From: Mucilaginibacter pineti
GTDB lineage: Bacteria > Bacteroidota > Bacteroidia > Sphingobacteriales > Sphingobacteriaceae
DNA length: 64,000 nucleotides
Reading direction: 5' to 3'
Assembly (NCBI RefSeq): GCF_900101875.1
Contig: NZ_FNAI01000001.1
Location: 434,001-498,000 of the forward strand
Shown here: one piece after another, positions 42,925 to 64,000 of the stretch
How the letters are laid out: the number at the start of each line of letters is the position of its first letter
Numbering within the stretch: the first letter of the stretch is position 1
The notes under the pieces: model-generated
What the model was told of the DNA's origin: nothing
Database searches by the model: none
Seen by the model: only the letters and a program-made list of their open reading frames with translations
Made by a program: the position numbers and the translations under genes

Positions 42925-43311
42925 ATGAAAAAAACTTTACTAATTGTCGATGACGATTTAAGTATATTAAAATTACTCAGCTTTATCCTTTCAAAGGATT
43001 ATGCAGTTGTTGTAAAAAACAACGGCATCGACGCGTTTGGCTGGCTGGAGGAGGGCAATATGCCCGAATTGATCATCTCCGATCTTCAAATGCCCTATTT
43101 TGATGGACAGTCATTCGCCAAAAATGTAAAGATCAGTGGTTTTTATCGCGACATTCCGGTGATCCTGCTTTCGGCAGCGCATGACCTTGATGAACAGGTA
43201 AGCAAAATGCCTTTTAAAATTGATGCATACATGCACAAGCCATTTAAACCCAACGAATTAAAAGCCGCCATTAACCAACTCCTACAAATTTATGAGTCAA
43301 CAAACGTCTGA
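42925..43311 (+). CDS. Single-domain response regulator
   Basis: The 128-residue protein is a CheY-like receiver with no output domain. The acidic pocket VDDD (residues 8-11), the phosphorylation site Asp53 (LIISDLQMP), Ser83 (LLSAAHD) and Lys105 (YMHKPF) are all present, so it should be phosphorylatable. No histidine kinase lies in the window. The last 20 bp overlap the next gene, which encodes a sugar-phosphate transferase with a second, degenerate receiver, suggesting that the two proteins work together to switch exopolysaccharide synthesis. Confidence 0.93.
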   Translation: MKKTLLIVDDDLSILKLLSFILSKDYAVVVKNNGIDAFGWLEEGNMPELIISDLQMPYFDGQSFAKNVKISGFYRDIPVILLSAAHDLDEQVSKMPFKIDAYMHKPFKPNELKAAINQLLQIYESTNV

Positions 43312-44377
43312 TTGGAACGAAAATTCGGGTTCACATATCAAGATTGCTTATGCTGGGTTGGAATTAAAAGAATTAATTTTAACGGGACTTGCCAATTTTA
43401 ACATCATTGCCAACGATACCATAGCCGAGCTTGAAGAGTACCTGGGCGAACAATCTATCCTATCCATCCCCGATATTATTTTGATAGAGGTTGATAACGA
43501 AGGCAAGTGTTTTAAGCTGGTTGAGGAAATAAAAAAGAGCTTTTTACTTACTGGGGTTATCATAGTATTATTATCTACCCATAAAGATAAAACCTACAAG
43601 CAAACAGCCATGAAACTGAGGGTGCATGACTATTACAGCCAGCCCTTTGCAATTGATGATCTGCGCGAACGGTTGAACTTCCTGGTTACCTTTAAACTTA
43701 TAAAACCAAGGCTGCTTGAACTTTCAAAAGAAGTTGATACAACCTATAAAATGCCATGGGGAAAACGTGCTATTGACCTGGTTATATCGGGCTCTATGCT
43801 GTTTTTTCTGTCGCCGGTATTTTTGGCGGTTGCCATAGCTATAAGGTTGGATTCAAAAGGCCCTATATTTTATACCAGCAAACGCGTAGGTACGGGTTAT
43901 AAGGTATTTAATTTTTATAAATTCAGGTCGATGCGCACCGATGCAGACCAGCTGCTGGCAAAGTTATCCACAGAAAACAACCAATATGCAACCGAAGCCG
44001 GGGCCAGTAAAGCTGCCTTTGTGAAGATCAAAAATGACCCCAGGATCACCAAGCTTGGCAACTTTTTACGCAACTCCAGCCTTGACGAATTACCGCAGCT
44101 TTATAACATACTTATAGGTGATATGTCGGTAGTTGGCAACAGGCCGCTGCCTGTTTACGAGGCCGAAATGCTTACCTCAAACGAGTGGTCGATGCGCTTT
44201 TTAGGCCCTGCCGGTTTAACCGGTTTATGGCAGGTGAGCAAGCGTGGAAAAGAAGACATGAGCGAGCGCGAAAGGAAAAAGTTGGATAACTTTTATGCCC
44301 AAAAATATTCAATTTGGTTAGATTTACGGATTATAGCCGGAACCATACCTGCCTTGTTTCAAAAAGAAAAAGTATAA
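43292..44377 (+). CDS. Priming sugar-phosphate transferase fused to a degenerate receiver domain
   Basis: Residues about 15-135 of this 361-residue protein look like a receiver domain: strand-helix alternation with DIILIEVDNEG at the phosphorylation position, VIIVLLSTHKD and YYSQPFAIDDL. The acceptor Asp is replaced by Glu66, the conserved Lys by Gln117, and the acidic pair is missing. Residues 155-361 are a bacterial sugar transferase (PF02397, WcaJ/WbaP type) with KRAIDLVISGSMLFFLSPVF, DSKGPIFYTSKRVG, FNFYKFRSMRTDAD, LRNSSLDELPQLYNIL and GNRPLP. It would load the first sugar phosphate on undecaprenyl phosphate at the inner membrane. Confidence 0.93.
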   Translation: MSQQTSDWNENSGSHIKIAYAGLELKELILTGLANFNIIANDTIAELEEYLGEQSILSIPDIILIEVDNEGKCFKLVEEIKKSFLLTGVIIVLLSTHKDKTYKQTAMKLRVHDYYSQPFAIDDLRERLNFLVTFKLIKPRLLELSKEVDTTYKMPWGKRAIDLVISGSMLFFLSPVFLAVAIAIRLDSKGPIFYTSKRVGTGYKVFNFYKFRSMRTDADQLLAKLSTENNQYATEAGASKAAFVKIKNDPRITKLGNFLRNSSLDELPQLYNILIGDMSVVGNRPLPVYEAEMLTSNEWSMRFLGPAGLTGLWQVSKRGKEDMSERERKKLDNFYAQKYSIWLDLRIIAGTIPALFQKEKV

Positions 44378-44379
44378 CA

Positions 44380-45060
44380 ATGAATAAGCGTTTAAAACTA
44401 TTTTACTTTTTATTAATCATTACACTGTTTTGCAACCAATTACATGCCCAGGAAACATTTATAAACAATGTTAACATGGGTTACCTTGATAAACTGGTAG
44501 CCACCGCCAAAAGAAATTACCCCGAAGTAAAAGTGAGGCAAAGCCAGGTGAATGCCGCCCACAGCACTTATACAGCTACAAAGTTTGCATGGTTTGATGG
44601 TTTGACGGCATCATACATTTACAGTCCGCAAAATTCCATCAACCTAGCCACTCCTACTATTTTTAAAGGCTATCAACTGGCTATTTCTTTAAGCATAGGC
44701 CAGCTGTTAAAAACTCCGGCTACTACCAATGCTGCTTACGAAACCTATAAAGTAGCCCAATACCAGCAAAGCGAATATATGCTGAGCCTTGAAGCGCAGG
44801 TAAAACGCTTTTACTTTGCATACCTTGAGGCAATGGCCGAGCTAAGGCTGCGCTCCGGTGCGGTTTCTGATGCAAGCGCCGCCGTTAAACAGTTAAAATA
44901 TTCTTTTCAAAAAGGAGAAACTACTTTCCAGATCTATAATGAACAGTTAAATAGTTATTACAATCAAAACTCGTTTATGGTACAGGCCGAATTAGCAACC
45001 TGGACAGCCAAAACAAATCTGGAAGAACTATTAGGAACTAAATTAGAGGATATAAAGTAG
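44380..45060 (+). CDS. TolC-family protein of half length
   Basis: From ATG 44380 the protein has 226 residues with a signal peptide (MNKRLKLFYFLLIITLFCNQ, cleavage after LHAQ). The rest is one helical hairpin repeat of the outer-membrane efflux protein family: YLDKLVATAKRNYPEVKVRQSQVNAA, ATKFAWFDGLTASYIYSP, and the long C-terminal helices (YQQSEYMLSLEAQVKRFYFAYLEAMAELRLRS). Complete TolC proteins have two such repeats and about 430 residues, so this is half a protomer and may assemble as a hexamer or act as an accessory. It lies 3 bp before the Wzc-like gene. The start at 44314 lies within the previous gene. Confidence 0.82.
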   Translation: MNKRLKLFYFLLIITLFCNQLHAQETFINNVNMGYLDKLVATAKRNYPEVKVRQSQVNAAHSTYTATKFAWFDGLTASYIYSPQNSINLATPTIFKGYQLAISLSIGQLLKTPATTNAAYETYKVAQYQQSEYMLSLEAQVKRFYFAYLEAMAELRLRSGAVSDASAAVKQLKYSFQKGETTFQIYNEQLNSYYNQNSFMVQAELATWTAKTNLEELLGTKLEDIK

Positions 45061-45063
45061 GTA

Positions 45064-47226
45064 ATGGAGATAGGCAACTTTTTTAAGCTTTTAAGAAAAT
45101 ACATATTAATACTCATCTTAGTACCACTGGTAACGGTAGTTGGCTCGTTTTTCCTTGTTAAAAACCTGCCAGATACTTATGTATCCCATGCGCAGATAGC
45201 CACAGGTATTATTGATGCATCGCGCCATTTACTTGATAAGGATGCCAGCGCCAATGTGCAGGAACAACAGGTATTAAGCGAATTTAGCAACCTCATGGCC
45301 ATCATGCGGTTAAAGAAAATGATAAACCAGGTTTCGTACTCGCTTATCATTCACGACCTAAGCAACCCCGGCTCTCCATTTAGCAAGCCCAGCAAATCAC
45401 TGGCCGAAATGCATGAGTACGAACGCGAACATGCGCTTAAAGTTTTTCAATACAAATTTGAGCATCTTGAACCACTATCGCTTTACAATAGCGATGAAAG
45501 CAAACTGAACGATCTGCTGCGGTCCATGAAGTACGATGATGTATCGTTACGTAAAGAACTGCTGGTTTTCAGGGACGATGAAAGTGATTTTATTTCGGTA
45601 AGCTTTGAGTCTGATAATCCGCAGTTATCTGCAACCGTTGTTAACGTGTTGTGTACCCAGTTTATCCAATACTATACACAAACGGTTAAGAAAAACGAGT
45701 CGAATGCGGTTGCTTTTTTATCAGACCTGTTAGATAAAAAAAGGGATACATTAACGGCAAAAACAGCCCAGCTTCAAAAATACAAAATAGATAACGGCGT
45801 ACTTAACCTCGACGAGCAGTCGAAGGCTATTTTTGCCCAGATAATGACCTATAACGATAAAAAGCAGGAAGCCGAAAAGGATATTGCATCGTACAACGGG
45901 GCCGTAAATTCCATCAACAATAAATTCTCGCCTACCGACAGGGAATACCTGGAATCGGCCATGAGCAAGTACAACCAGGTAATTGTTTCAACACAGGAGC
46001 AGCTTCATATCATTCAAAACAAATACATCCGCAGTAACTATAATCCTGTTTATAAACCTACTTTAGATTCTATCCAAAAGGCGCTGTCAGAACAAATCAA
46101 CCTGTCGTCGGATGTTAACGGCAGCAGCCCTTATGCCGCAAAAGACGAACTGATTAAACAAAAAATAGCGCTTGAGGTATCGCGCGATCTGGCAAAGAAT
46201 AGCGTAAAATCAATAAATGATGAACTGGCCGATCTGAACACCAAATTCAACCGGCTGGTGCCTTTTGATGCCAAGGTAAAAACGTATGGTTTTGATATTG
46301 ATATTGCCAGTAAGGAATACCTGGATGTTTTAAATAAGTACAACGAAACTAACCTTAAATCAAACTTCTCCATTAAACTGATACAGGTGGAGATAGCTAC
46401 ACCTGAAGCCCCTCAGCCATCTAAAAAAATGCTGCTGATAGTGTTAAGCGCTTTGGTGATGTTGTTTGTTTGCGTATTTGCGCTGTTTTTGATGTTTTAT
46501 CTTGATAATTCCATCAAAGAACCGGCCGAACTGGTTAATAAAACCCAGTTACCTTTATTGGGCTACGTAAATAAAATACCAGGATCGCAGCCCGACCTGA
46601 AGAAACTTTGGGATGTAGAGAACCGAGATAAGATGAAGCACTTTAAAGAGCTGTTGCGATCTGTAAGGTTTGAAATTGACCAGGAACTACGCGGCGAAAA
46701 GGTGATAGCCGTTACCAGCATGAGCGGCGGAGAGGGTAAGTCGATTATTGCTACCAGCCTGGCCTACTCCTACTCCATGATCAATAAAAAGGTACTGCTT
46801 ATAGATGGTAACTTTAACAACCCTACCATCACCCATAGCGTACAGCCGCAGCTCTACGTTGAAGATTATTTTAAAAATAATCCCTACGATAACCAGGAGA
46901 TAAGCAGCAGCACGGCAACCGTTTTAGGCAACCACGGCGGCGATGTTACCCTACTTGAAATTGGCAGTGAAGGTTTTGTAAAAAGCCGTTTTGATGATTT
47001 AAAGGCACGATACGATGTTATTATTATCGACACCGCGCCACTAAGTTCACTAAACACTTCAAAGGAATGGCTGCTATTCGCTAATAAAACTATAGGTGTT
47101 TTTGAGGCAAACAAAGATGTTACCAATGCGCAAAAAACGCATGTAGCCTTCTTAAAATCATTGGGCAGTAAGTTTGGTGGCTGGGTATTGAACAAAGCCA
47201 CTTTTGATAAAGGAAACAGATCTTAA
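45064..47226 (+). CDS. Wzc-like polysaccharide co-polymerase with ATPase domain
   Basis: The 720-residue protein spans the inner membrane twice (about 14-34 and 456-478). Between them lies the Wzz domain and a long periplasmic coiled coil (about 215-440). The cytoplasmic part carries a BY-kinase-type ATPase: Walker A TSMSGGEGKSIIATSL (about 552), A-prime VLLIDGNFNNP and Walker B VIIIDTAPL. The Tyr-rich tail of true Wzc autokinases is missing: the protein ends LNKATFDKGNRS. It should control chain length and export of the polysaccharide with the outer-membrane partner. Confidence 0.92.
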   Translation: MEIGNFFKLLRKYILILILVPLVTVVGSFFLVKNLPDTYVSHAQIATGIIDASRHLLDKDASANVQEQQVLSEFSNLMAIMRLKKMINQVSYSLIIHDLSNPGSPFSKPSKSLAEMHEYEREHALKVFQYKFEHLEPLSLYNSDESKLNDLLRSMKYDDVSLRKELLVFRDDESDFISVSFESDNPQLSATVVNVLCTQFIQYYTQTVKKNESNAVAFLSDLLDKKRDTLTAKTAQLQKYKIDNGVLNLDEQSKAIFAQIMTYNDKKQEAEKDIASYNGAVNSINNKFSPTDREYLESAMSKYNQVIVSTQEQLHIIQNKYIRSNYNPVYKPTLDSIQKALSEQINLSSDVNGSSPYAAKDELIKQKIALEVSRDLAKNSVKSINDELADLNTKFNRLVPFDAKVKTYGFDIDIASKEYLDVLNKYNETNLKSNFSIKLIQVEIATPEAPQPSKKMLLIVLSALVMLFVCVFALFLMFYLDNSIKEPAELVNKTQLPLLGYVNKIPGSQPDLKKLWDVENRDKMKHFKELLRSVRFEIDQELRGEKVIAVTSMSGGEGKSIIATSLAYSYSMINKKVLLIDGNFNNPTITHSVQPQLYVEDYFKNNPYDNQEISSSTATVLGNHGGDVTLLEIGSEGFVKSRFDDLKARYDVIIIDTAPLSSLNTSKEWLLFANKTIGVFEANKDVTNAQKTHVAFLKSLGSKFGGWVLNKATFDKGNRS

Positions 47227-47276
47227 AAACATAAGCCCCTTGTTTACACCGGGGTTTAAGCCTTTAGCTTAATATT

Positions 47277-47414
47277 ATGAGAATAGAACCCAGGGAACCC
47301 AAACCAGATCCGTTTGAACATTTAACAGTTCTTCAAAACAGATCACGCAAGGCAGCAATAATTGTATCATTTATTGCCGTGTTTATATGGGTTATCAAAA
47401 TCCTCTTTTTATAA
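47277..47414 (+). CDS. 45-residue single-span membrane protein in the polysaccharide operon
   Basis: This short frame (MRIEPREPKPDPFEHLTVLQ...) lies in the gap between the wzc-like and wzy-like genes and fits it neatly, ending 15 bp before the next start. It has a charged, proline-rich N-terminus and one C-terminal membrane segment (AAIIVSFIAVFIWVIKILFL), so the N-terminus would be cytoplasmic. No family is recognised. Position and the membrane segment suggest a small partner of Wzc or Wzy. Confidence 0.6.
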   Translation: MRIEPREPKPDPFEHLTVLQNRSRKAAIIVSFIAVFIWVIKILFL

Positions 47415-47429: not shown

Positions 47430-48947
47430 ATGCTCAATGAACAAACAGGTAATGGCAATGTAAAGCAAACTTTTTGGAAAAGCATTCTTTTCAAAAAGTT
47501 TTCGAGCCCGCTGGTTATTGTTTTTTTGTTGGCAGCAGCCCTGTTTATAAGCGTTGTAGTATATAAAACCGGGTTTATAGGCATAGGGGCTATCCTTATA
47601 TTAATTATTGGTTTACCCATATTGTATGGCATTGTGGTCTATCCCAAGTTTGGGATAACCGTTTTAATACTGGCCTCTTTTTTCATCAATTACGTTTCGG
47701 AAATATTGCCGGAGGAAGTACCGATTGGCACCTTGTTGGATGCTATTACGTACCTGCTTATCCTTGGCTTTTTCATCAAGCACAAAAGCGAGCAAAACTG
47801 GTCGTACTTTAAAAATCCTATTAGTAAAATCATCCTTATATGGCTTGGGTATAACTTGTTCCAGGTTATAAATCCGGTGGCATCATCAGTACTGGCCTGG
47901 GTTTACACCGTACGTACGGTAGGTTTTATCATGCTCATGTACTTTGTGTTTGTTTACCACATCCGCTCGGTAAGCTTTATAAAGTTTCTGCTCAAGCTAT
48001 GGCTCGCGCTTGATGTTGTAGCCGGGATCTCGGCTTTTCAGCAGGAAAACTTCGGCTTTTTACCATTCGAACAAAAATGGCTTTATTCTGATCCCTTGCG
48101 GGTAAGCCTGCTGTTTATAGAAGGCCACATGCGTAAATTCGGGATCTTTTCAGATCCCGTGACCTTTTCTTATAACATGATCATTGGCAGCCTGCTGTGC
48201 ATCGCATTAATTATGGGCAACATAGCCACCCGTAAAAAGATCATCCTGGGCTGCATGGCCGCGTTTTTTTTAACGGTGATGCTATACTCGGGCACAAGGG
48301 CCGCTTACGTTTTACTGCCTGCCTCGCTTGGCATACTGGCGGTTATCAACTTTAACAAAAAGGTACTGGCATTTACTATTGTGGCCGGTTGTATGCTGGG
48401 CGTTTTAATTGTAATGCCAACCTCAAACCCATTGATAAAAAGATTCCAAACGGCCTTTAAACCGTCCGACGATCCATCATACAACGTACGCGCTGAAAAT
48501 CAAAAACGCATTCAGCCATTTATCCAGTCGCACCCATTTGGCGGCGGATTGGGCTCTGTTGGTGTTTGGGGGCGCCGCTTCTCCCCTAACTCAATGCTGG
48601 CAAAATTCCCACCCGATAGCGGTTATGTACGTGTAGCAGTAGAAATGGGCTTTGTTGGCCTCATCCTTTTTTGTACACTGTTTTTTACGGTGCTCAAAAA
48701 TGGCATTAACTTTTTCTTCCGCATAAGAGATCCGCAGCTTAAAAACTATTGTATGGCCATGATACTTGTTGTTTTTGCTTTTAATATCGGCAACTTTCCG
48801 CAGCAGGCTATCGTTCAATATCCATCGAACATATTGTTTTACCTGTCTATAGCTATTTTGGTTGCCTGTATGCGGTTAGATACTGAACAGGAAGAAGCAA
48901 AGCAGAAATTAATAAATGACAGCACTTTAAAACCCGAATTAAGTTAA
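47430..48947 (+). CDS. Wzy-like O-antigen ligase/polymerase family protein
   Basis: The 505-residue protein has about twelve membrane segments and a large periplasmic loop in its second half containing FKPSDDPSYNVRAENQKRIQPFIQSHPFGGGLGSVG, which resembles the Wzy_C/O-antigen ligase signature (R-x-x-x-x-x-A and H-x-x-x-G-x-G). GTRAAYVLLPASLGIL comes before it. In a Wzx/Wzy system this enzyme joins lipid-linked repeat units in the periplasm. It is preceded by the small membrane protein and followed 4 bp later by the acetyltransferase gene. Confidence 0.9.
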   Translation: MLNEQTGNGNVKQTFWKSILFKKFSSPLVIVFLLAAALFISVVVYKTGFIGIGAILILIIGLPILYGIVVYPKFGITVLILASFFINYVSEILPEEVPIGTLLDAITYLLILGFFIKHKSEQNWSYFKNPISKIILIWLGYNLFQVINPVASSVLAWVYTVRTVGFIMLMYFVFVYHIRSVSFIKFLLKLWLALDVVAGISAFQQENFGFLPFEQKWLYSDPLRVSLLFIEGHMRKFGIFSDPVTFSYNMIIGSLLCIALIMGNIATRKKIILGCMAAFFLTVMLYSGTRAAYVLLPASLGILAVINFNKKVLAFTIVAGCMLGVLIVMPTSNPLIKRFQTAFKPSDDPSYNVRAENQKRIQPFIQSHPFGGGLGSVGVWGRRFSPNSMLAKFPPDSGYVRVAVEMGFVGLILFCTLFFTVLKNGINFFFRIRDPQLKNYCMAMILVVFAFNIGNFPQQAIVQYPSNILFYLSIAILVACMRLDTEQEEAKQKLINDSTLKPELS

Positions 48948-48951
48948 GCCG

Positions 48952-49566
48952 ATGTCTGTAGTTTCAAAAATAAAATCAAACCCCGGATTAAAAAAGTTTG
49001 TCCACTGGCTGCTTATTCCAAGCGGCGAGGCAAGGCCCAGACTTTGGGTGCGCTGGTTTGTAAACCCCTTTTATCACCATAAAGGCAAAGGCGCGGTAGT
49101 GAGGTATAATGCCCGCATGGATGTATTCCCGTTCAAGAATTTTTCGTTAGGTAGCAAAAGCATAATTGAAGATTTTGCCACCATAAATAACGGTGTTGGC
49201 GATGTTATTATAGGCAATAATTGCGGCATTGGCATAGGCAATGTTATAATAGGTCCGGTTACGTTGGGTGATTATGTAATGTTTGCCCAAAATATCGTGG
49301 TATCAGGTCTTAATCATGGTTATGAAGATATCAGCACGCCCCCCCGCCTGCAAAAAGTAATAACCAAACAAATAACCATAATGGATAATGTATGGATTGG
49401 CGCAAACAGCGTGATCACTGCGGGCGTTACCATTGGCAAACATTCCATTGTGGGTGCAGGCAGCGTGGTTACTAAAAGCATCCCCGATTATTCGGTAGCG
49501 GTAGGCAACCCTGCAAAGGTTATTAAAAAGTATAATTTCACAACAAACGCCTGGGAAAAAGCGTAA
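48952..49566 (+). CDS. Left-handed beta-helix O-acetyltransferase
   Basis: The 204-residue protein has a hexapeptide-repeat domain: IIGNNCGIGIGNVIIGPVTLGD, FAQNIVVSGLNHGYEDIS with the catalytic His, then NVWIGANSVITAGVTIGKHS and VGAGSVVTKSIPDYSVAVGNPAKVI, the closing signature of maltose/galactoside acetyltransferases. It probably acetylates a sugar of the repeat unit using acetyl-CoA in the cytoplasm. It lies 4 bp after the wzy-like gene and 10 bp before the flippase gene. Confidence 0.92.
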   Translation: MSVVSKIKSNPGLKKFVHWLLIPSGEARPRLWVRWFVNPFYHHKGKGAVVRYNARMDVFPFKNFSLGSKSIIEDFATINNGVGDVIIGNNCGIGIGNVIIGPVTLGDYVMFAQNIVVSGLNHGYEDISTPPRLQKVITKQITIMDNVWIGANSVITAGVTIGKHSIVGAGSVVTKSIPDYSVAVGNPAKVIKKYNFTTNAWEKA

Positions 49567-49576: not shown

Positions 49577-50920
49577 ATGGGGTTTCTAAAAAAAGTTATA
49601 AATAAACATACGCTTTCCTTAGCCAGTAATGCCATTATGCCGGTACTGGGCATGGCCATACTATCATTAATGGCCAAATACCTCTCCCCTGCAGATTTTG
49701 GCGACTATATCTTTTTCCTGGTAATATTTACCCTTGCCGATACCTTCAGAACGGGCTTTTTACAAACCGCGCTCATCAAGTACTACGCCGGTGCCAGTCC
49801 CGAGCGGGCGGCCAACATAGCCGGCTCGGCATGGTTTGTTGGCTTCACCATAGTGGTTACCGCAGCTGTGGGTAACCTCGCACTGTATTTTTTATACTTC
49901 GGCGGCAGTGTAAATATGGTTATCACCTTAAAGTGGTTCAGTCTTATATTTTTGAGTACGCTGCCCACGGCCATTGCCGGTTGGGTGCTGCAGGCCGAAG
50001 AACGGTTCGACAAGCTGTTTATGGTGCAGCTTATTAACCAAGGCGGCTTTTTCATCCTTATTGTAGTGCTCATCATACTTCACCGGGCCAACTTCCAAAA
50101 TGCTATATACTGCTATTTCATTAACAATGTTATCAGCAGTATTGTAACCACGGCTGTCGGCTGGTCTAAAATTAAAACCATCAGCAAAAAAAGCTGGACA
50201 TCGGTTAATGAACTGTTCCACTTTGGCAAGTTTAGCGTTGGCACCTCCATCAGCTCGTACCTGCTGCGTAGTTCCGATACCTTTATTATTAAAATGATGT
50301 TCCCCAGTAACTTGTTGCCGGTTTATTATTTGCCGCAACGGTTAATGGAACTGTTTGAGATACCAATGCGAGCCTTTGTTGCTACGGCCTTGCCTACCAT
50401 GTCGGCAGCGGTACACCGGGGCGATAAAAAGTATGTATCCTATATCATGAAAAAATACGCCGGGATGCTTACCATTGCGCTTATCCCTGTTGCTATTGTG
50501 GCATTTTTACTGGTTGATATTGTTATAGGTCTGCTTTTTAGCAAATACCAGCACTCCGAAGCGGGTAACATCTTCCGTATTTTTATGTGCTTTGTGATGC
50601 TGCTGCCTATCGACAGGTTTTTTGGCATTACGCTGGATATTATTGGCAAACCCCAGCTAAACATGATTAAGGTATTTATTATGTTAACCGTAAACGTAGT
50701 GGCCGATTTTGCTGGTATCTTCATTTTCCATAACCTTTATGGCGTGGCAATCGCCTCTATCTTTACGTTTTTCTCGGGGGCTATATTTGGCTACTGGGCG
50801 CTTAAAAAGCATTTGGAATTTTCTATCAAGGATATTTTTTACCTCGGCTATTTAGAACTCATGGAACTCATTGGTATGCTGTTTCAAAAGATGAGGAAAA
50901 AGGGGGCCGAACAGAACTAA
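49577..50920 (+). CDS. Wzx-like oligosaccharide flippase
   Basis: The 447-residue protein has about twelve to fourteen membrane segments and the MOP/PST-type N-terminus (SLASNAIMPVLGMAILSLMAKYLSPADFGDYIFFLVIFTLADTFRTGF). QLINQGGFFILIVVLIIL and LFHFGKFSVGTSISSYLLRSSDTFIIKMMF mark the second half. It should flip undecaprenyl-linked repeat units to the periplasmic side. It lies in an unbroken series with the acetyltransferase (10 bp) and GT1 (1 bp) genes. Confidence 0.9.
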   Translation: MGFLKKVINKHTLSLASNAIMPVLGMAILSLMAKYLSPADFGDYIFFLVIFTLADTFRTGFLQTALIKYYAGASPERAANIAGSAWFVGFTIVVTAAVGNLALYFLYFGGSVNMVITLKWFSLIFLSTLPTAIAGWVLQAEERFDKLFMVQLINQGGFFILIVVLIILHRANFQNAIYCYFINNVISSIVTTAVGWSKIKTISKKSWTSVNELFHFGKFSVGTSISSYLLRSSDTFIIKMMFPSNLLPVYYLPQRLMELFEIPMRAFVATALPTMSAAVHRGDKKYVSYIMKKYAGMLTIALIPVAIVAFLLVDIVIGLLFSKYQHSEAGNIFRIFMCFVMLLPIDRFFGITLDIIGKPQLNMIKVFIMLTVNVVADFAGIFIFHNLYGVAIASIFTFFSGAIFGYWALKKHLEFSIKDIFYLGYLELMELIGMLFQKMRKKGAEQN

Positions 50921-52127: not shown

Positions 52128-52186
52128 CGTGTTAAATTAGCTTGTGATGTGCTGCAGGTTAATAACGCTTTAAAACATACTACAAC

Positions 52187-53371: not shown

Positions 53372-53487
53372 TACGTATACAAAAAAAGAAATAATGAGGG
53401 TTGTGGCAGGATGTGTGCAAGGATGTAATAATTGAAATGAACGGCGCCCTTTTTATTTATATTGATAGCTTTAAATAATACCCCACA

Positions 53488-56145
53488 ATGGATACTTCTA
53501 AAAAAACTGATGGTTTAATTATGCTGAACGATACCGCGGTTAACTATCCGAAAGATAAAGCGCTGCACCACCTTATAGCCGAACGGGCGCTTCAACATCC
53601 CGATAAAATTGCAATTGTTTTTGAAGAACGGTTTTTAACGTTTAAAAACGTAAACGAAGCTGCCAATAAACTCGCTAAACACCTGCTAACCTATAATATT
53701 AAAACCGGCGATATCATAGGCGTTGCCCTTGACCGTTCGCCCGAAATGGTGATTTCCCTGCTGGCCATACTTAAAACCGGTGCAGCTTATGTCCCCCTCG
53801 ACCCCGAATATCCTAAAGACAGGGTTGAGTTTATGATGGAAGATTCGGCTGCAAAAGTGCTGCTTACATCTGAAAAATATAAAGGTCATTTTACATCTGT
53901 AGCGCAGGAAGTTTTAATTGAAGATGCCCTGAACAAATTCGACAGCTATTCGGCCGAAGATCCTGAAACCGTTGTTAGCGGTACCGATCTGGCATATGTG
54001 CTGTTTACATCGGGCTCAACAGGTAAGCCTAAAGGCGTACAAATAAAGCACCACAACCTGGTTAACTTTTTGCTGAGTATGCAAAAGCAACCAGGTTTAG
54101 CTGCCGAAGATAACTTATTGGCAGTAACCACCATATCATTTGATATTGCCGGGCTCGAATTATTTTTGCCACTATTAGTTGGCGCTAAACTTATAGTTAC
54201 CGATGCCATTACTGCTAAAGACGGCAGGGCGTTAATTGACTTGTGTATCGCGCAGCAAATAACTGTTATGCAGGCTACCCCCTACACCTGGCGTGTAATG
54301 TTGGAAGCTGGGTGGGAGCAAAAACTGCCCCTGCGTATCCTTTGCGGCGGTGAGGCCTTACCAAAGGATCTTATCAATAAACTGAATGCCCGCAGTTCGG
54401 AGCTTTGGAACATGTATGGCCCAACCGAAACTACGGTTTGGAGCACTGTTAAGCTGATAAAGAACGATACCGACATTACCATTGGTAAACCCATTGATAA
54501 TACCCAGGTTTACATTGTTGATGAACAGCTGAATAACCTTACCGATGGCTCTATAGGCGAAATATTTATCGGCGGCGACGGTGTGGCCAAAGGCTACCTG
54601 AACCGGCCCGAACTTACCGATGAAAGGTTTGTGGCAGATATATTCTCGGGTGTGGAAGGCAGTAAAATGTACCGCACCGGCGATTTGGGTAAGATTAGGG
54701 AAGACGGCGAGATCATTTGCCTGGGCCGGATAGATCACCAGGTTAAGGTACGCGGTTACCGCATTGAACTGGAAGAGATAGAACAAAACCTTTTAAAGCT
54801 TGGTAATGTAAAACAAGCGGTAGTTATAGCCCGTGAAGATGTACCCGGAAATCCGCGCCTGGTGGGTTATATTATTGTTAATGAGCCAATAAACCAACCC
54901 GACCTAAAGGCACAATATGAGTTATGGCAGCAGGGCCTGCTTGCGGTATTGCCAGAATATATGGTACCCGATGATTTTGTGCTGATGGATATAATTCCGA
55001 TTACACCAAATGGTAAAATAGACCGCAAAGCACTCCCCAAGCCCGATTATAGCAACATACAGCGCACCGGCGAATTTATTGCCCCGCGCACACCAAACGA
55101 AACATTGGTTGCAGCCATTTGGCAGGAGCTGATGGACCTAAAGAGCATCAGCGTTGATGATAACTTTTTTGAATTGGGCGGTCGTTCATTGGTGGCGGTA
55201 CAAATTATGGCCCGCATTGAAAAAGAAACCGGTAAACGCCTGCCCCTGGCTACCCTGTTTGAATACGCCACTGTTGAAAAACTGGCTGCCCGGTTAGAGG
55301 TTGATCCGGCCTCTATTACCTGGGAATCACTTGTGCCTATTAAGCCAAGCGGCAGTAAAATGCCTTTGTATATTGTACATGGTGCAGGCTTAAACGTGTT
55401 GTTATTTAACGCGCTGGCCATGAATATGGATATTGAGCAACCCGTTTACGGTTTACAGGCCAAAGGGTTGAACGGTATTGATGAACCTTTAGATGTAATG
55501 GAAGAAATTGCGGCCAATTACATTGCCGAAATTATAGCCAAAAACCCCGAAGGTCCTTACGCGCTTGCAGGCTATTCATTAGGTGGTATTATAGCCTACG
55601 AAATGGCCAAGCAGCTAATGGCAACAGGTAAAGAAGTTAAAATGCTGGCCATGTTTGACACTTTTGCCGAGCAATCAACCGTGAACGACAGCAAGTTGAC
55701 CAAAGTGGTGAATAAATCATTACTTACCTTAAAGCAAATAGGCCACACCTTTGTGTTGCTTGCCGAAGATCCAAAACGTACCATCGAATATAAAAGCCTT
55801 ATCCTTAAACGCAGGCTTATCAAACTATTCTGGAAGCTATCGCCTGGCAACGACGAAAAGAAAGAAGGCTTTTTTGCTTACGACAATGAGATTGACGAAG
55901 CCAGTGAAAAAGCATTACGCAACTACGTATTAACGCCGCTCAATATAGCTATTGAATTGTTCCGTGCCAAAAAACGCACATTTTATATGGCCGATTTTGA
56001 TTTCCTGGGCTGGCGGCCGTTTGCCAAAAAAGGTGTAAACGTACACGAGATTCCCGGCGAACACAATACCATATTTGCACCACCAAATGATAAAGAATTT
56101 GCTGTTGTGTTACAGCAATGTCTTGATAACGTATCTAAAAGTTAA
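53488..56145 (+). CDS. Three-domain NRPS: adenylation, carrier, thioesterase (glycine-like pocket)
   Basis: The 885-residue protein has no condensation domain. The adenylation domain (about 25-540) shows YVLFTSGSTGKPKGVQ, FDIAGLEL, NMYGPTETTVW, YRTGDLG, GRIDHQVKVRGYRIELEEIE and NGKIDRKALP. Its specificity residues, aligned by eye to gramicidin synthetase GrsA, read D-I-L-Q-L-G-M-V-W plus the Lys, near the known glycine code. The carrier domain follows with Ser567 in FFELGGRSL (Arg where His is usual). The type I thioesterase has Ser697 in GYSLGGIIAYEMA, MFDTFAE and His in EIPGEHNTIF. It could release or transfer a single aminoacyl group. It lies among glycosyltransferase genes, 116 bp after the GT2 gene. 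Confidence 0.93.
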   Translation: MDTSKKTDGLIMLNDTAVNYPKDKALHHLIAERALQHPDKIAIVFEERFLTFKNVNEAANKLAKHLLTYNIKTGDIIGVALDRSPEMVISLLAILKTGAAYVPLDPEYPKDRVEFMMEDSAAKVLLTSEKYKGHFTSVAQEVLIEDALNKFDSYSAEDPETVVSGTDLAYVLFTSGSTGKPKGVQIKHHNLVNFLLSMQKQPGLAAEDNLLAVTTISFDIAGLELFLPLLVGAKLIVTDAITAKDGRALIDLCIAQQITVMQATPYTWRVMLEAGWEQKLPLRILCGGEALPKDLINKLNARSSELWNMYGPTETTVWSTVKLIKNDTDITIGKPIDNTQVYIVDEQLNNLTDGSIGEIFIGGDGVAKGYLNRPELTDERFVADIFSGVEGSKMYRTGDLGKIREDGEIICLGRIDHQVKVRGYRIELEEIEQNLLKLGNVKQAVVIAREDVPGNPRLVGYIIVNEPINQPDLKAQYELWQQGLLAVLPEYMVPDDFVLMDIIPITPNGKIDRKALPKPDYSNIQRTGEFIAPRTPNETLVAAIWQELMDLKSISVDDNFFELGGRSLVAVQIMARIEKETGKRLPLATLFEYATVEKLAARLEVDPASITWESLVPIKPSGSKMPLYIVHGAGLNVLLFNALAMNMDIEQPVYGLQAKGLNGIDEPLDVMEEIAANYIAEIIAKNPEGPYALAGYSLGGIIAYEMAKQLMATGKEVKMLAMFDTFAEQSTVNDSKLTKVVNKSLLTLKQIGHTFVLLAEDPKRTIEYKSLILKRRLIKLFWKLSPGNDEKKEGFFAYDNEIDEASEKALRNYVLTPLNIAIELFRAKKRTFYMADFDFLGWRPFAKKGVNVHEIPGEHNTIFAPPNDKEFAVVLQQCLDNVSKS

Positions 56146-56209
56146 AAACTTTCGTATAAGTTATTAGTGATAATGAATTTATTGTTTTGTTGCCCAAACT
56201 GAATAATTA

Positions 56210-57349
56210 ATGTCGAGTACACCACTGCGTGAAGTATCTGATAAAATAAAAACTAAAGTTTTCTTTCCTAATTTAAATGGGGTAAGGGCATTGGCTGCCC
56301 TTATGGTTGTGGTATCGCATGTTGAACTTCACAAGGTTATTTTTCACGTAAGGCGCATTCCCGATACCAATCTGCTTAATTTTGGCAAGGCTGGGGTTAC
56401 CATATTTTTTTCGTTAAGTGGTTTCCTGATCACCTACCTCCTGCTTGAAGAAAAACGGAATTTTACTACTATCAATTTCAAAGGTTTTTATATGCGCCGC
56501 ATCCTGCGCATCTGGCCGTTGTATTACCTGGTGGTGCTTTTCGGGTTCTTTGTGTATCCCGGCGGTACCGGTCACGCGTTTTGGCTGTCGGTATTTTTTT
56601 TGCCCAATCTGGCATTCTGCCTGCAAATGCTGCCCGCCATTTTCGACCCAATATGGTCAATCGGAACCGAGGAGCAGTTTTATATTTTTCATCCCCATTT
56701 TTTCAGGATAAAAAAGCTGCAACATATCTTGTATGCCCTGCTTGCTTTTATTGTATTGCTTTGGGCGGCTCAACTTGCTGTCGATCATCTGTTTGTACAT
56801 CATCCCATGTATACCTCTTTGCATAAAGTAATGTACTATTCCCGGTTTGATAACATGATGATAGGTGCCGTTGTTGCAGTTTTGTATTACAATACCAAAC
56901 ATCCAGAGTTTAACTTCAGGTTTCAAAAAGTGTTTAATGCCATATTCAGAAAAAAGGTGCAACTCGTCATCCTCAATATATTTTTAATATACTTGGTTTG
57001 CTATTTACTTTATGATATCCCGCATGGCGATGTATTGATAGCTGCACTGGCCTCGCTGCTTATCGTTAATTTATGCGAAGCCAAAACCAGCATTTATTCG
57101 CTCAATAATAAGTACTTGGGTTACATAGGGCAAATTTCATACAGTATATACCTGCTGCATAAATTTGTTTTGTTTTTGGTATTATACCTGATTAGCAAAT
57201 ATCTGGCGCAGGGCAGCCTTGTTATCGAAAACATAATTATCTATACATCAATCATAACATTGTCGATTGCTTTGGCCTCGCTATCCTATTATGGATACGA
57301 AAGGCCTTTTTTAAATATCAAGAAACGATTTCAAAAAATCACTCAATAA
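56210..57349 (+). CDS. Acyltransferase-3 family membrane protein (OafA-like)
   Basis: The 379-residue protein has about ten membrane segments and starts with the acyltransferase-3 signature FFPNLNGVRALAALMVVVSHVELH (catalytic His in the first span), then GKAGVTIFFSLSGFLITYLLLEE and MRRILRIWPLYYLVVLFGFF. These proteins move an acyl group, often acetyl, from the cytoplasmic to the periplasmic side and place it on a glycan. Its place after the NRPS gene (64 bp) makes it a candidate for modifying the exopolysaccharide. A fused SGNH domain, seen in some OafA proteins, is absent. Confidence 0.92.
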   Translation: MSSTPLREVSDKIKTKVFFPNLNGVRALAALMVVVSHVELHKVIFHVRRIPDTNLLNFGKAGVTIFFSLSGFLITYLLLEEKRNFTTINFKGFYMRRILRIWPLYYLVVLFGFFVYPGGTGHAFWLSVFFLPNLAFCLQMLPAIFDPIWSIGTEEQFYIFHPHFFRIKKLQHILYALLAFIVLLWAAQLAVDHLFVHHPMYTSLHKVMYYSRFDNMMIGAVVAVLYYNTKHPEFNFRFQKVFNAIFRKKVQLVILNIFLIYLVCYLLYDIPHGDVLIAALASLLIVNLCEAKTSIYSLNNKYLGYIGQISYSIYLLHKFVLFLVLYLISKYLAQGSLVIENIIIYTSIITLSIALASLSYYGYERPFLNIKKRFQKITQ

Positions 57350-57432
57350 TGGCCGCTATTCAGTTAGTTTTAAACCTTCAACATTTGGCGCAGTTAATTC
57401 GTAAAATCAACGCCAGCACATTATCAGCATAA

Positions 57433-58356
57433 ATGAAAAAAGTATCTGTTATTACCGTAAACTTTAACCAGCCTGCTGTTACCGAAGATATGCTGTTGTC
57501 GATAGAAAACACTAACGACTACACAAACCTGGAGATAATTGTGGTTGATAATGCAAGCAGGGAAAACCCTGTTCCCGAATGGCAGGTAAAATATCCGCAG
57601 ATAAAATTCATCCGGTCGGATGTTAACCTGGGTTTTGCGGGCGGTAATAACCTGGGCATAAAACAAGCCACCGGCAATTACCTTTTCCTGGTAAATAACG
57701 ATACGGAATTCACCTCCGGTCTGGTTGAAAAACTGGTTGCCGTACTTGATAATAAAGCAGATGTGGGCATGATATCGCCCATGATAAAATATTACACAGA
57801 TAAACAGCTCATTCAATATGCGGGTTATACGCCTATGAATTATTACACCTGCCGCAACAGTTGTATCGGTCTGCGCCAAAAAGACGAGGGACAGTTCAGC
57901 AATATTAATGGCCCTACCGCCTATTGCCACGGTGCCGCCATGATGATAAAAAAGGAAGCCGTTGCCAAAGCCGGATTAATGGCTGAAAACTTTTTTTTAT
58001 ACTACGAGGAAGTGGATTGGTGCGAGCATATTCTGCGGGCAGGTTATAAGGCCTGGGTTAATACCAACGCCCTCATTTATCATAAAGAATCGGTATCGGT
58101 AGGTAAAAAGAGCAAGCTGAAGGAGTATTTCATGAACCGCAACCGCATCCTGTTTATCCGCCGCAACGCGCCGCTGTTTAAAAAGCTGTTCTTTTACTTT
58201 TACTTTTTGCTGCTGGTTGTGCCACGAAATGTAATTACCTACATCAAAAACAAAAACTACGATTTTATACCGATGCTTTTTAAAGCAGTATGGTGGAATT
58301 TTACCCACTCAAAAAACAGCACCAACTTAGGTTATCCCATAAAAACAATTGCATGA
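57433..58356 (+). CDS. GT2 glycosyltransferase, rhamnosyltransferase-like
   Basis: The 307-residue protein starts MKKVSVITVNFNQPAVTEDML and carries VVDNASREN, NLGFAGGNNLGIKQA, the metal site FLVNNDTEF and YCHGAAMMIKKEAVAKAGLM with YEEVDWCEHILRAGYKA, all typical of GT2 enzymes of the rhamnosyltransferase type. A short hydrophobic segment near 255-275 (FFYFYFLLLVVPRNVITY) suggests membrane attachment. It overlaps the next GT2 gene by 4 bp, so the two are translated together. Confidence 0.92.
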   Translation: MKKVSVITVNFNQPAVTEDMLLSIENTNDYTNLEIIVVDNASRENPVPEWQVKYPQIKFIRSDVNLGFAGGNNLGIKQATGNYLFLVNNDTEFTSGLVEKLVAVLDNKADVGMISPMIKYYTDKQLIQYAGYTPMNYYTCRNSCIGLRQKDEGQFSNINGPTAYCHGAAMMIKKEAVAKAGLMAENFFLYYEEVDWCEHILRAGYKAWVNTNALIYHKESVSVGKKSKLKEYFMNRNRILFIRRNAPLFKKLFFYFYFLLLVVPRNVITYIKNKNYDFIPMLFKAVWWNFTHSKNSTNLGYPIKTIA

Positions 58357-59528
58357 AAATCATTTTAATAATAAGCCTCGTTATTGTTTTTTACACTTTT
58401 GCAGGATACGGGATCCTGCTGTATTTTATTATCAAAATAAAAAGGGCCGTGCGTGGCCGCAAACCTCCTATAGCCGAAGATCTGGATAACCTGCCCACCT
58501 GTACCCTTGTGGTGGCCGCCTATAACGAAGCTGATTTTATACAGGAGAAGATCAATAATAGTCTATTGCTAAACTATCCGCAAGGCAAACTAAAGTTGCT
58601 ATTCATTACTGATGGATCATCAGACAACACGCCCGATATTATTGCCCGGTATCCGCAGATCCAACTGCTGCACCAGCCACAGCGTGCCGGTAAAATTGCC
58701 GCTGTACACCGTGCCATGGAGTTTGTTGATACTGATGCCGTTGTTTTTACCGATGCCAATACGTTTTTGAATAAAGACGCGCTGATCAAGATCTGCCGCC
58801 ACTATAGTGACGCCACCGTTGGCGCGGTTGCCGGTGAAAAGCGCGTTCACTTTGATGAAAATGCCGATGCCAGTGCCGCCGGTGAGGGTTTTTACTGGAA
58901 ATACGAATCGGCGCTAAAGAAATGGGATTCGGAGCTGTACTCTGTTGTGGGTGCTGCGGGCGAATTGTTCAGCGTGCGCCGTTCGTTGTACCTGCCTGTT
59001 CATGCCGACACCGTGCTGGATGATTTTATGATCTCGATGCTGATTGCTGAAAAGGGCTATCGCATTGTTTATGAGCCCGAAGCCTACGCAACAGAAACCG
59101 CGTCAGAAAACGTATCGGAAGAATTGAAACGGAAAATAAGGATAGCAGCCGGTGGTATACAATCCATACTAAGGTTAAAAAGCTTATTCAACCCGTTCCC
59201 CTATCCCATATTATCATTCCAGTACATCAGTCACCGCGTTTTACGGTGGACGGTTACCCCCTTCCTACTTATCCTGTCGTTCATTTTAAACGTGATACTG
59301 GCGTTGCAACCCGGTGCTACCGGCTTACAGGTACTGTTAGCATCCCAGGTGTTATTTTACCTGCTGGCCATTTTAGGTTTTATAATGGAAAAGAGGCAAC
59401 TGCGCATAAAAATTTTGTTTATCCCCTACTATTTCTGCGTAATGAATTACGCGGTAATGGCGGGCATTTTGCGCTATTTTACCACAACCCAAAGTGCCGT
59501 TTGGGAAAAAGCACAGCGTAAACAATAA
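58353..59528 (+). CDS. Membrane-bound GT2 glycosyltransferase
   Basis: The ATG at 58353 overlaps the previous stop (ATGA) and gives 391 residues, starting with a membrane segment (MKIILIISLVIVFYTFAGYG). The GT-A domain shows CTLVVAAYNEADFIQ, LLFITDGSSDNTPDI, the DxN-type metal site FTDANTF, VGAAGELFSVRRSLY and DFMISMLIAEKGY; the later RKIRIAAGG corresponds to the acceptor-site region of related synthases. Three C-terminal membrane segments follow (about 290-375). It would act on the cytoplasmic face of the inner membrane in repeat-unit assembly. A longer frame from 58290 lies inside the preceding gene. Confidence 0.92.
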   Translation: MKIILIISLVIVFYTFAGYGILLYFIIKIKRAVRGRKPPIAEDLDNLPTCTLVVAAYNEADFIQEKINNSLLLNYPQGKLKLLFITDGSSDNTPDIIARYPQIQLLHQPQRAGKIAAVHRAMEFVDTDAVVFTDANTFLNKDALIKICRHYSDATVGAVAGEKRVHFDENADASAAGEGFYWKYESALKKWDSELYSVVGAAGELFSVRRSLYLPVHADTVLDDFMISMLIAEKGYRIVYEPEAYATETASENVSEELKRKIRIAAGGIQSILRLKSLFNPFPYPILSFQYISHRVLRWTVTPFLLILSFILNVILALQPGATGLQVLLASQVLFYLLAILGFIMEKRQLRIKILFIPYYFCVMNYAVMAGILRYFTTTQSAVWEKAQRKQ

Positions 59529-59651
59529 ATAAAAAGGTGTTTCATTTAATCATTAGTTTAATATTGCTTATCAATTTTAAACGGGTGGTTTTTATAAATA
59601 ACTAATAAGTATGAATTAAAATATATTGCCTTAAAATGAACTTTAAAGCCG

Positions 59652-59678
59652 TTTGCAACATAAAAAAACGCTATCTTG
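59652..59678 (+). promoter_or_regulatory. Possible Bacteroidota promoter before the megasynthase gene
   Basis: TTTG (59652-59655) and TATCTTG (59672-59678), 16 bases apart, resemble the TTTG / TAnnTTTG promoter of Bacteroidota. They lie in the 241-bp gap 59529-59769, the widest gap in the cluster after its leader, which suggests separate transcription of the gene that follows. No other feature is seen in the gap. Confidence 0.35.
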
Positions 59679-59769
59679 AACTGCTTTAAATAACCTGCAA
59701 ATTATTTAAATAAACCTGTTATAATAAGTGATCAGGCCAGTGTGAATATAGCTAACCTCATCAAGTTTA

Positions 59770-62700: not shown

Positions 62701-64000
62701 CTGGCTATGCGCCATAAACAGATCCCACCGTCGCTATTCTACAAAAACATCAACCCCAATATTAATATTACTGATAGTCCCTTTTACGTCAACGCCCAAT
62801 TAACCGATTGGAAATCTGATGGTGCGAGGCTTGCAGGTGTAAGTTCCTTTGGCGTTGGTGGTACTAATGTACATGTGGTGATTGAAGAGTTTATTGACGA
62901 GCCTGCTGCAGCCAGCGAAAGCAAGCCTTTAAAGCTCATTACATGGTCGGCAAAAACGGCAGGCAGTGTAAATAATTACGCGCAGAAATTGGGCGATTTT
63001 ATTACAAAGTATCCCACCACTAATCTTGCCGATGCTGCCTATACCCTGCAAACAACCCGTGCCGATTTTAATTACCGCAGGTTTATAATAGCGGCAAATA
63101 ATGAAGAATTAGCTGCCAAATTAATTACTACGGAAACTGATCCAACCGCATCAAAGGAGTTAAAAACCAAGGTTTCGGGCGTTGTATTTATGTTCCCGGG
63201 ACAGGGTTCGCAATACGCCGGTATGGGGCTGGAATTGTATAAAACCGAGCCCGTTTTTACCGCTGCTGTCGACGAATGTATCGCATTATTAAAGGGTACT
63301 ATACATGAACATATACTTGAGGTAATATATCCTAATACACATGACAGTCAATCGACTGAAAAAATAAAACAAACATTATATGCTCAGCCCGCGATATTCA
63401 TTTTAGAGTATGCAATGGCTAAACTATGGATGAGTTTTGGCATCCAGCCAGAGGTACTAACCGGCCATAGCATAGGCGAATTTGTAGCCGCACACCTTGC
63501 AGGAGTATTCAGTTTGGCTGAGGCGCTGAAGCTGATCTCTGAACGTGCAAGATTGGTGAACAGCGTAGACACCGGCAGTATGTTATCGGTAAGGTTAGAG
63601 GCAGAAAAGCTCCGGGCGTTATTACCTGCAAGCCTATCCATTGCTGCCATTAATACCCGCAAACTTTGCGTTGTGGCCGGCCCTGTTGATGAAGTTGCCG
63701 CCTTTGCAGAGCAACTGGCATCACAAGGCATCCCGGCAAGGTTGTTATTAACCAGCCATGCTTTCCACTCATCTATGATGGATAGCGTTGTGCATCCTTT
63801 TGAGGATGTGGTACGATCTGTAAAGTTAAATATCCCTGTAAAACCACTGGTATCTACAGTAACGGGTAACTGGATGAGCGGCGCCGAAGCTACCGACCCA
63901 ACCTATTGGTCGCACCATTTGCGCAATACCGTTCGTTTTGCTGATGCTTTGGATGTTTTACACGAGGACGGCGGCAGGATGTTCCTGGAAGTTGGCCCGG
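59770..64000 (+). CDS. NRPS-PKS hybrid megasynthase, N-terminal part (A-T-KS-AT...)
   Basis: The frame opens at ATG 59770 and runs to the right edge without a stop (1410 complete codons). The adenylation domain (about 20-530) has AYVLYTSGSTGTPKGVV, FDVSFHEIF, NQYGPTETHVV, YRTGDLARYLPDG and GRKDTQVKIRGNRVELGEIE; eye alignment gives D-V-H-F-M-A-Q-V-V plus Lys, nearest to proline codes but not firm. The carrier has Ser559 (FLLGGNSL). The ketosynthase (about 617-1045) keeps Cys788 (YAACSTSLLAV), His924 (VEAHGTATPLGDP) and His963 (NMGHLTAASG). The acyltransferase (from about 1138) has Ser1234 in GHSIGEF and HAFH at 1330-1333, the malonyl-CoA signature. It should start a chain with an amino acid and extend it with malonate. 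Confidence 0.96.
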   Translation, partial: MNINPVNIIEKGIINTILVHQLFEQQQNKTPHVLAVTYGSKQLTYNQLNQQANNLAAEILRVSPTSEIIGVSTFRSVETIISVLAILKAGKAYLPLDPDYPKDRLEQIITDSGIDTCLITNSQKHLFEGLPVGVLFSDAAHPQQEQQISAVNANGAYVLYTSGSTGTPKGVVMGHAALVNLLLWQKDNSVSTTGINTLQFAPLSFDVSFHEIFATLSTGGTLVLVADDLRVDPVKLLLYIEQQAINRIFLPFVVLQYITEAAIANKHIPDCLLEVMTAGEQLKITPQITAFFKALPNCVLYNQYGPTETHVVTELKLTGDESLWPALPSIGIPIDATEIIILDENLNILPHGETGELCVAGVSLANGYLNKPELTAEKFLNWQESDTKTTRIYRTGDLARYLPDGNIEYLGRKDTQVKIRGNRVELGEIEVLLNQLDNIRQAVVIAREDAAGQKRLLAYLVSADQQQNTAGVRKSLEQQLPDFMLPSAYVWLTELPKTTSGKVDRKALPSPGLERPDLAVLFKAPSTPTEKNITAVWMRLLQLDKIGIDDDFFLLGGNSLLALKTVATLKQELNLDVPITKLYQYPTITGLVNFLSGNSKTTPLLSKKKIKTDNTNQDIAIIGMAGRFPGANTIDEFWELLSEGRESTSFFTADELDKSIPASLRNDPAYIKARGVIDKADEFDAAFFGFNPRNAELMDPQHRVFLEIAWEVLEKTGYLPQKYNGLVGVFAGCGYNTYYNNNVLTNPQIVDRTGHFQVRLLNEKDYIATRTAFQLNLEGPAVAVYAACSTSLLAVAQAVSSIRNGQCSVAIAGAVSITSPLKSGHIYEEGSIMSSDGHCRPFDAEATGTVFSDGAGVVLLKSLADARRDGDTIHAIIKGIGVNNDGAAKSSFSGPSAHGQAGAIAMAIDDAGIEASAISYVEAHGTATPLGDPIEIEGLSLAFGEQDKKQFCAIGSVKSNMGHLTAASGVAGLIKTALAMRHKQIPPSLFYKNINPNINITDSPFYVNAQLTDWKSDGARLAGVSSFGVGGTNVHVVIEEFIDEPAAASESKPLKLITWSAKTAGSVNNYAQKLGDFITKYPTTNLADAAYTLQTTRADFNYRRFIIAANNEELAAKLITTETDPTASKELKTKVSGVVFMFPGQGSQYAGMGLELYKTEPVFTAAVDECIALLKGTIHEHILEVIYPNTHDSQSTEKIKQTLYAQPAIFILEYAMAKLWMSFGIQPEVLTGHSIGEFVAAHLAGVFSLAEALKLISERARLVNSVDTGSMLSVRLEAEKLRALLPASLSIAAINTRKLCVVAGPVDEVAAFAEQLASQGIPARLLLTSHAFHSSMMDSVVHPFEDVVRSVKLNIPVKPLVSTVTGNWMSGAEATDPTYWSHHLRNTVRFADALDVLHEDGGRMFLEVGP

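Follow-up and report, generated by a model that had tools for sequence, protein, structure and literature searches.

A stretch of 64,000 nucleotides from the soil bacterium Mucilaginibacter pineti (contig positions 434001-498000 in a genome of 7.2 Mb; hereafter the window) carries, from position 42925 onward, an exopolysaccharide (EPS) operon that encloses a nonribosomal peptide synthetase (NRPS) gene and runs on into a hybrid gene of NRPS and polyketide synthase (PKS) type. A total of 14 plus-strand genes lie between 42925 and the window end according to open reading frame (ORF) calls, and the complete plus-strand run, followed into the adjoining sequence, comprises 16 genes and ends at 71187 in window numbering; a first-pass annotation of the window had rightly described a single-strand run but had counted fifteen genes in it. 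The operon opens with a single-domain response regulator (RR; 42925..43311; Pfam Response_reg), which is found at the same operon place in relatives whose examined stretch extends that far. It is followed by a priming polyprenyl glycosylphosphotransferase (PT; 43292..44377; Bac_transf, 2.3e-58), whose N-terminus is weakly receiver-like (Response_reg 5.8e-05, under its cut-off) and which scores under the cut-off of NCBIfam EPS_sugtrans, by a half-size TolC-like outer membrane protein (OEP; 44380..45060; Pfam OEP, 2.6e-16; ATG start, with a longer TTG start possible at 44314), and by a Wzc-like chain-length/copolymerase ATPase (45064..47226; AAA_31) that remains under the cut-offs of both NCBIfam pepcterm_ChnLen and eps_fam. 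The sugar genes preceding the NRPS gene are completed by a Wzy-like polymerase (47430..48947; Wzy_C, 8.5e-14), a hexapeptide acetyltransferase (HexAT; 48952..49566; Hexapep), a Wzx-like flippase (49577..50920; Polysacc_synt_3, 1e-16), a group 1 glycosyltransferase (GT4a; 50922..52127; Glyco_trans_1_4), and a Pfam-assigned family 2 glycosyltransferase (GT2a; 52187..53371).

The next gene, here called ATTE (53488..56145), encodes a free-standing NRPS of 885 aa with adenylation (A), carrier (T), and thioesterase (TE) domains (Pfam AMP-binding, PP-binding, and Thioesterase). Downstream of it lie an OafA-like acyltransferase (Acyl3; 56210..57349; Acyl_transf_3, 2e-24) and two further family 2 glycosyltransferases, GT2b (57433..58356) and GT2c (58353..59528; ATG start, with a longer TTG frame from 58290). 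The run continues with NRPKS (59770..66405; 2211 aa), which crosses the window edge at 64000 and has the domain order A-T-ketosynthase (KS)-acyltransferase (AT)-T-class III aminotransferase, and, outside the window, with the condensation (C)-containing C-A-T-TE NRPS CATTE (66420-70448; 1342 aa) and a phosphopantetheinyl transferase (PPTase; 70456-71187), all of them, like GT2b and GT2c, assigned by Pfam and on the plus strand. NRPKS, CATTE, and PPTase are referred to below as the cassette. The longest intergenic gaps precede NRPKS (241 bases), wzy (203), and ATTE (116), and none of the others exceeds 83 bases. A search for the Bacteroidetes promoter motif gave one plus-strand match, within the ATTE gene, and one minus-strand match, and a sigma-70 and terminator scan of 52000-60000 stayed within about 1 standard deviation of shuffles; neither indicated a division into transcripts. 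The downstream flank consists of a convergent GT2 gene and then a putative penicillin-binding protein gene; the same two genes also border the locus in several relatives.

Pfam thus bears out the priming transferase, the Wzc-, Wzy-, and Wzx-like proteins, the four glycosyltransferases, and the two acyl/acetyltransferases that the first-pass annotation had proposed, as it does the free-standing A-T-TE gene amid sugar genes (a GT2 gene before it, acyltransferase and GT2 genes after it) and, together with the ORF calls, the NRPS-PKS gene at the window edge. Extending the sequence past 64000, a step which that annotation had advised, supplied the remainder of NRPKS to 66405 and then CATTE and PPTase. 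With priming transferase, flippase, polymerase, and copolymerase all matched by Pfam, the sugar genes correspond to a Wzx/Wzy operon, and they resemble known Wzx/Wzy-dependent operons in uniting these functions with glycosyltransferases and acyltransferases in one run. The run differs from such operons in its OEP-type protein, its internal NRPS gene, and the lack of a Wza-type Poly_export match among the 16 genes (the search covered only these genes, and the genome may encode Wza at another place). The OEP, of about 226 aa, stands in the position in which one would look for a Wza exporter and is retained in the genus EPS loci that were read; TolC proteins are usually about twice as long.

The placement of ATTE was compared across 149 genomes of the genus, with GT2a as the marker of the EPS operon (found in 71 genomes) and at least 60% identity defining an ATTE orthologue (63 genomes). 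The best named relatives of ATTE belong to Mucilaginibacter (84-87% identity in the top three); at 1e-60, matches occur in 108 of 301 family genomes, and many of these matches are to different NRPSs. ATTE is the gene immediately 3' of GT2a in 62 of the 63 genomes, on its contig and strand and at a spacing of 79-186 bases; the sole exception is G353, where separate contigs carry the two genes. M. lappiensis likewise has its ATTE in this setting (locus L141). This adjacency exceeds chance. The order RR-PT-OEP-Wzc-Wzy-HexAT-Wzx-GT4a-GT2a-ATTE was read in 33 relatives as far as their stretches extend, with HexAT or GT4a absent from some of these operons; the gene-order comparison suggested in the first-pass annotation therefore upholds the position of ATTE. 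Acyl3 is absent along with ATTE from EPS loci L120-L124 and is also lacking beside ATTE in many relatives that retain ATTE. Within the group whose cassettes are unlinked, many loci have ATTE followed by a gene of about 1870 aa; the example scanned (L060:12816-18434) is a bacterial alpha-2-macroglobulin.

The cassette is placed far more freely. NRPKS and GT2a occur together in 60 genomes. The cassette follows the operon downstream in 19 of these and precedes the response regulator in 11; in 7 it is 0.36-4.9 Mb away on the same contig, and in the other 23 a separate contig carries it, in some cases perhaps because of draft breaks. All 30 operon-adjacent cassettes share the strand of the operon. 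In G162 and G192 a PPTase adjoins ATTE, while NRPKS-CATTE lies elsewhere and has no neighbouring PPTase. In G301 the sugar core has diverged (Wzc 37% and Wzy 28% identity) and the cassette lies among EPS genes, with CATTE next to OEP and Wzc; GT2c is followed by NRPKS and PPTase and then by the usual downstream flank. In locus L059 of genome G101, NRPKS and CATTE are fragmented, and the EPS operon and ATTE appear whole.

Co-occurrence was tabulated for 117 good genomes of the genus, with 14 low-quality ones set aside and the broken NRPKS of G101 scored as present. ATTE and NRPKS are both found in 50 of these genomes, ATTE only in 2 (G177 and G264), NRPKS only in 6 (G302, G151, G204, G225, G243, and G301), and neither in 59. 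Among the 59 good genomes with GT2a, the corresponding numbers are 50, 2, 1, and 6. Fisher tests that ignore kinship give 1e-23 for the 117 genomes and 4e-6 for the 59. Sugar genes with neither synthase occur in 6 of the 71 GT2a genomes; the sugar machinery can therefore do without the synthases, which makes them an accessory module. The first-pass annotation had named sugar genes without either synthase at the same place as an observation that would speak against a link. The case does occur, but as each of these genomes lacks the two synthases jointly, it is no refutation of coupling.

A tree of 40 EPS cores, taken from 41 genomes among the 71 with GT2a (G186 had too few core genes), requires four changes for ATTE and five for NRPKS, with gain and loss not distinguished. 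When the changes are read as losses, three fall on common branches, namely those of G089 and G370, of G234, G313, and G369, and of G095; random placement of losses shares three branches with a p of 0.003 when weighted by branch length and of 0.0006 when uniform. In the five genomes of the first two branches, ATTE and the acyltransferase are gone between GT2a and GT2b, and NRPKS, CATTE, and PPTase are gone after GT2c, with GT2b, GT2c, and the usual downstream flank retained. A single deletion is ruled out for these two flanking losses because GT2b and GT2c remain between them. G095 lacks both synthases, and its close relative G267 has the cassette 1.28 Mb from the operon on the same contig. Because the relatives of G095 carry the cassette away from the operon, two places were affected in G095 if its ancestor was alike. 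GT2b and GT2c themselves were considered as dedicated partners of the synthases within the genus and rejected, since GT2c is present in 118 of 149 genomes and both genes are kept where the synthases are missing.

Taken together, position and inheritance give a well-supported coupling of the EPS operon with two NRPS parts, of which the cassette is mobile in position yet tied in inheritance. The earlier judgement that ATTE was less likely to be a chance neighbour than the megasynthase holds for ATTE, which follows GT2a in 62 of 63 genomes, and was too cautious for the megasynthase, which is unlinked in many relatives yet co-inherited and lost on the same branches.

Catalytic residues were surveyed in near-full-length sequences (55 ATTE, 57 CATTE, and 65 NRPKS). 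The carrier and TE serines are conserved in 55/55 ATTE and 57/57 CATTE, the TE histidine in 54/55 and 55/57 (the remainder being gaps), the condensation HH..D motif in 57/57 CATTE, and the KS cysteine, AT serine, both carrier serines, and aminotransferase lysine in 65/65 NRPKS. The combination of adenylation, carrier, and thioesterase domains, their catalytic residues intact, marks the proteins as type I NRPS modules, and KS-AT-carrier with a class III aminotransferase whose active lysine is invariant marks NRPKS as a PKS-NRPS of the beta-amination type. The A-T-TE parts of ATTE and CATTE are paralogues (identity 58% for A, 66% for T, and 59% for TE). Pfam gave no Condensation match in the 885 aa of ATTE, which, if functional, would have to act with a partner or transfer its substrate directly. 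Ten pocket positions of the A domains were placed by motif rather than by a prediction tool. Most ATTE and CATTE carry DILQ..... or near variants, most EPS-linked NRPKS and many from other genera carry DVQL(M/I)AQVVK or near variants, and many unlinked NRPKS carry DAMVIAMVCK or variants. The DILQ pocket resembles what we take to be a glycine code and DVQ what we take to be a proline code; the AT motif HAFH, present in all but a few NRPKS, presumably denotes malonyl specificity. A plausible predicted product is thus a proline-derived beta-amino acid joined to glycine, which would be amine-rich.

These observations are best accommodated by a Wzx/Wzy exopolysaccharide with peptide or beta-amino-acyl decoration, a reading whose chance we would put a little under even, the attachment being inferred. 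Its more specific form, in which the co-inherited NRPS-PKS line builds a short peptide of beta-amino-acyl type that becomes bound to the EPS repeat unit as a templated decoration and possibly adds positive charges, is offered tentatively and with distinctly less than even confidence. The PPTase would arm the carriers; NRPKS would load an amino acid through its proline-like pocket and perform a single malonate extension, after which its aminotransferase would turn the beta-keto group into a beta-amine; CATTE, with its glycine-like pocket, would append a small amino acid and release the product; and ATTE would activate an amino acid similar to that of CATTE. One or both TEs, or the OafA-like acyltransferase where present, may then move the acyl group onto a lipid-linked sugar, to be flipped by Wzx and polymerised by Wzy. 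The outcome would be an exopolysaccharide bearing amine-carrying, peptide-like side groups.

Several known systems offer partial parallels. The mycosubtilin/iturin type is a hybrid PKS-NRPS with an in-line aminotransferase, and NRPKS shares with it a KS-AT-T unit followed by a class III/GSA-type aminotransferase, which would give a beta-amino acid; it differs in having an amino-acid-type A domain as starter instead of a fatty-acid ligase and in being limited to one extension and one amino acid. In the D-alanylation of teichoic acids by Dlt, adenylation and carrier functions deliver an amino acid to a surface polymer, as is proposed here, but a TE domain stands in place of the DltB/DltD pair. 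Identity with Dlt was rejected, the A domain scoring 330 bits against the NCBIfam DltA cut-off of 476, and no match to an MBOAT partner was obtained among the 16 genes. Exosortase-A EPS loci with an acyl-CoA ligase (TIGR03098) are alike in placing an AMP-forming ligase in an EPS locus; this identity was also rejected (242 bits against the NCBIfam cut-off of 592), and the other XrtA-system models among the matches listed all fall under their cut-offs. The stand-alone C-A-T-TE protein AB3403 (PDB 4zxh and 4zxi) gives long matches to CATTE (48-1325, 8e-178) and ATTE (26-871, 1.9e-147) and is outscored for both by other PDB entries, including linear gramicidin synthase A. We take the AB3403 structure to be glycine-bound, and we know of no polysaccharide link for this protein.

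Outside the genus, NRPKS matches at 1e-250 occur in 38 of 395 genomes of the class and in 15 of 196 genera, some reaching only to the second carrier. EPS-type genes scoring above 100 bits lie within 10 kb in 10 of 32 non-genus cassette loci compared with 3 of 47 other NRPS loci (p 0.005). It should be noted that this comparison excludes Mucilaginibacter loci and drops L193 as a duplicate of L137, that the truncated or weaker cassette loci L155 and L160 were counted among the controls owing to the score threshold, and that Bacteroidota matches are favoured, because some controls belong to other phyla and the profiles were derived from the present genus. A total of 16 of the 32 cassette loci cover less than 2.5 kb on the NRPKS side; where both sides span 8 kb or more (8 loci), EPS-type genes are present in 4 and absent from 4. 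In G661, from another family of the class, the cassette lies within a Wzx/Wzy-type locus between genes with GT2a and Wzc labels and genes with Wzx, HexAT, GT4a, Wzy, GT2c, GT2b, and PT labels, these being profile labels rather than Pfam assignments. In G719, NRPKS stands beside Wzy-, GT2a-, GT2b-, and GT4a-labelled genes (profile labels), and no CATTE was detected. Locus L168, a Bacteroidia metagenome-assembled genome from Lake Pavin, has a 2198-aa NRPS amid GT2a-, GT4a-, HexAT-, and GT2c-labelled genes, possibly a second, separate NRPS-polysaccharide pairing.

A number of observations weigh against a decorated exopolysaccharide. The synthases can part company: G302 lacks only ATTE and keeps the EPS operon and NRPKS; G331 (70% complete), in which a single contig bears NRPKS, CATTE, GT2a, and GT2c, gives no ATTE match, and its GT2a-GT2c interval fits only a GT2b-sized gap with no space for ATTE; and G264 keeps ATTE and a PPTase while NRPKS and CATTE are gone. 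NRPKS is found without GT2a in five good genomes, including G301, whose cassette nevertheless lies amid other EPS genes. An independent-pairs test yields about three pairs, all in the same direction and too few for significance. Second ATTE copies (65-66% identity) in L074 and L080 have no EPS neighbours; the L074 copy stands beside a beta-propeller protein matching the propeller family of the beta-alanine-activating enzyme. Among 13 distant loci with free-standing A-T-TEs (43-52% identity, L084-L096), clear EPS neighbours were seen in only 2, L088 and L095, so that a free-standing A-T-TE alone is not a sign of a glycan; such proteins lie in the Pedobacter EPS locus L088 and, in L095 (of the same genus code) as well as in G304, next to GT2c. 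The pocket readings come from motif positions, and the route from product to sugar, by TE transfer or acyltransferase, is conjecture.

Part of this evidence favours a free small molecule (a signal, a siderophore-like compound, or an antibiotic) made by the synthases and unattached to the sugar, its regulation and selection being shared with the exopolysaccharide, for example through biofilm life, which we regard as a serious though doubtful possibility. The spread of the cassette in Bacteroidota, the releasing TE that CATTE itself possesses, and the 7 genus genomes with a remote cassette on the operon's contig all suit such a product, as do the 22 of 32 non-genus loci with no EPS gene above 100 bits in the examined stretch, many of them short on one side, which likewise count against decoration. 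The same explanation leaves unaccounted for both the fact that 62 of 63 genomes embed ATTE in the EPS operon and the presence of an A-T-TE without a C domain, and the sole transport-type matches among the 16 genes are the EPS ones.

It is also conceivable, if improbable, that ATTE alone aminoacylates the glycan and that the cassette makes another product, tied to the operon mainly by supplying the PPTase for the ATTE carrier. ATTE is indeed fixed while the cassette shifts, a PPTase adjoins ATTE away from NRPKS in G162 and G192, and in G264 a PPTase gene persists at the operon's upstream border without the cassette synthases; PPTases usually serve more than one cluster, however, which speaks against such a tie, and G177, which retains ATTE without NRPKS at the threshold used, tells against this explanation as well as against decoration by the complete line. 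Mere hitchhiking, with the EPS locus as a variable hotspot in which the synthases are swapped along by recombination without a functional link, seems very unlikely. EPS loci are often exchanged, and for two of the three shared-branch losses a single recombination of the whole locus could suffice in each case, a point that also weakens the case for decoration. Hitchhiking fits poorly with the loss of both synthases in G095, whose relatives have them unlinked, with co-occurrence even where the parts lie far apart, and with catalytic residues that are intact in the sequences examined.

A possible regulator lies near some of these loci. In L130 (14976-17525), a minus-strand quartet encodes a weakly HATPase-like protein, a STAS protein, a response regulator-SpoIIE phosphatase, and a small protein without a match, which is likely a partner-switch regulator. 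Quartets alike in size and order occur in L120-L122, L046, L088, and L095, the domain-scanned copy being that of L130. In Mucilaginibacter and Pedobacter alike, the quartet is found close to GT2b/GT2c.

The portions of the open-licence PMC literature that were consulted contain no description of a Mucilaginibacter EPS locus with a coupled NRPS. Bacteroidota that suppress fungi are reported to need an NRPS-PKS cluster (PMC13211072), presumably the one called BGC298, which was considered as a candidate relative. Natural presence/absence sets (G089/G370 and the trio of G313, G234, and G369 against related species) permit a comparison of polymers without genetics. If the decorated exopolysaccharide is real, an orphan class of NRPS-PKS clusters in Bacteroidota would gain an unexpected home, secondary-metabolite assembly lines would be seen to tailor surface polysaccharides, and the charge, adhesion, and metal or phage binding of the exopolysaccharide could be tunable through the choice of adenylation domain.

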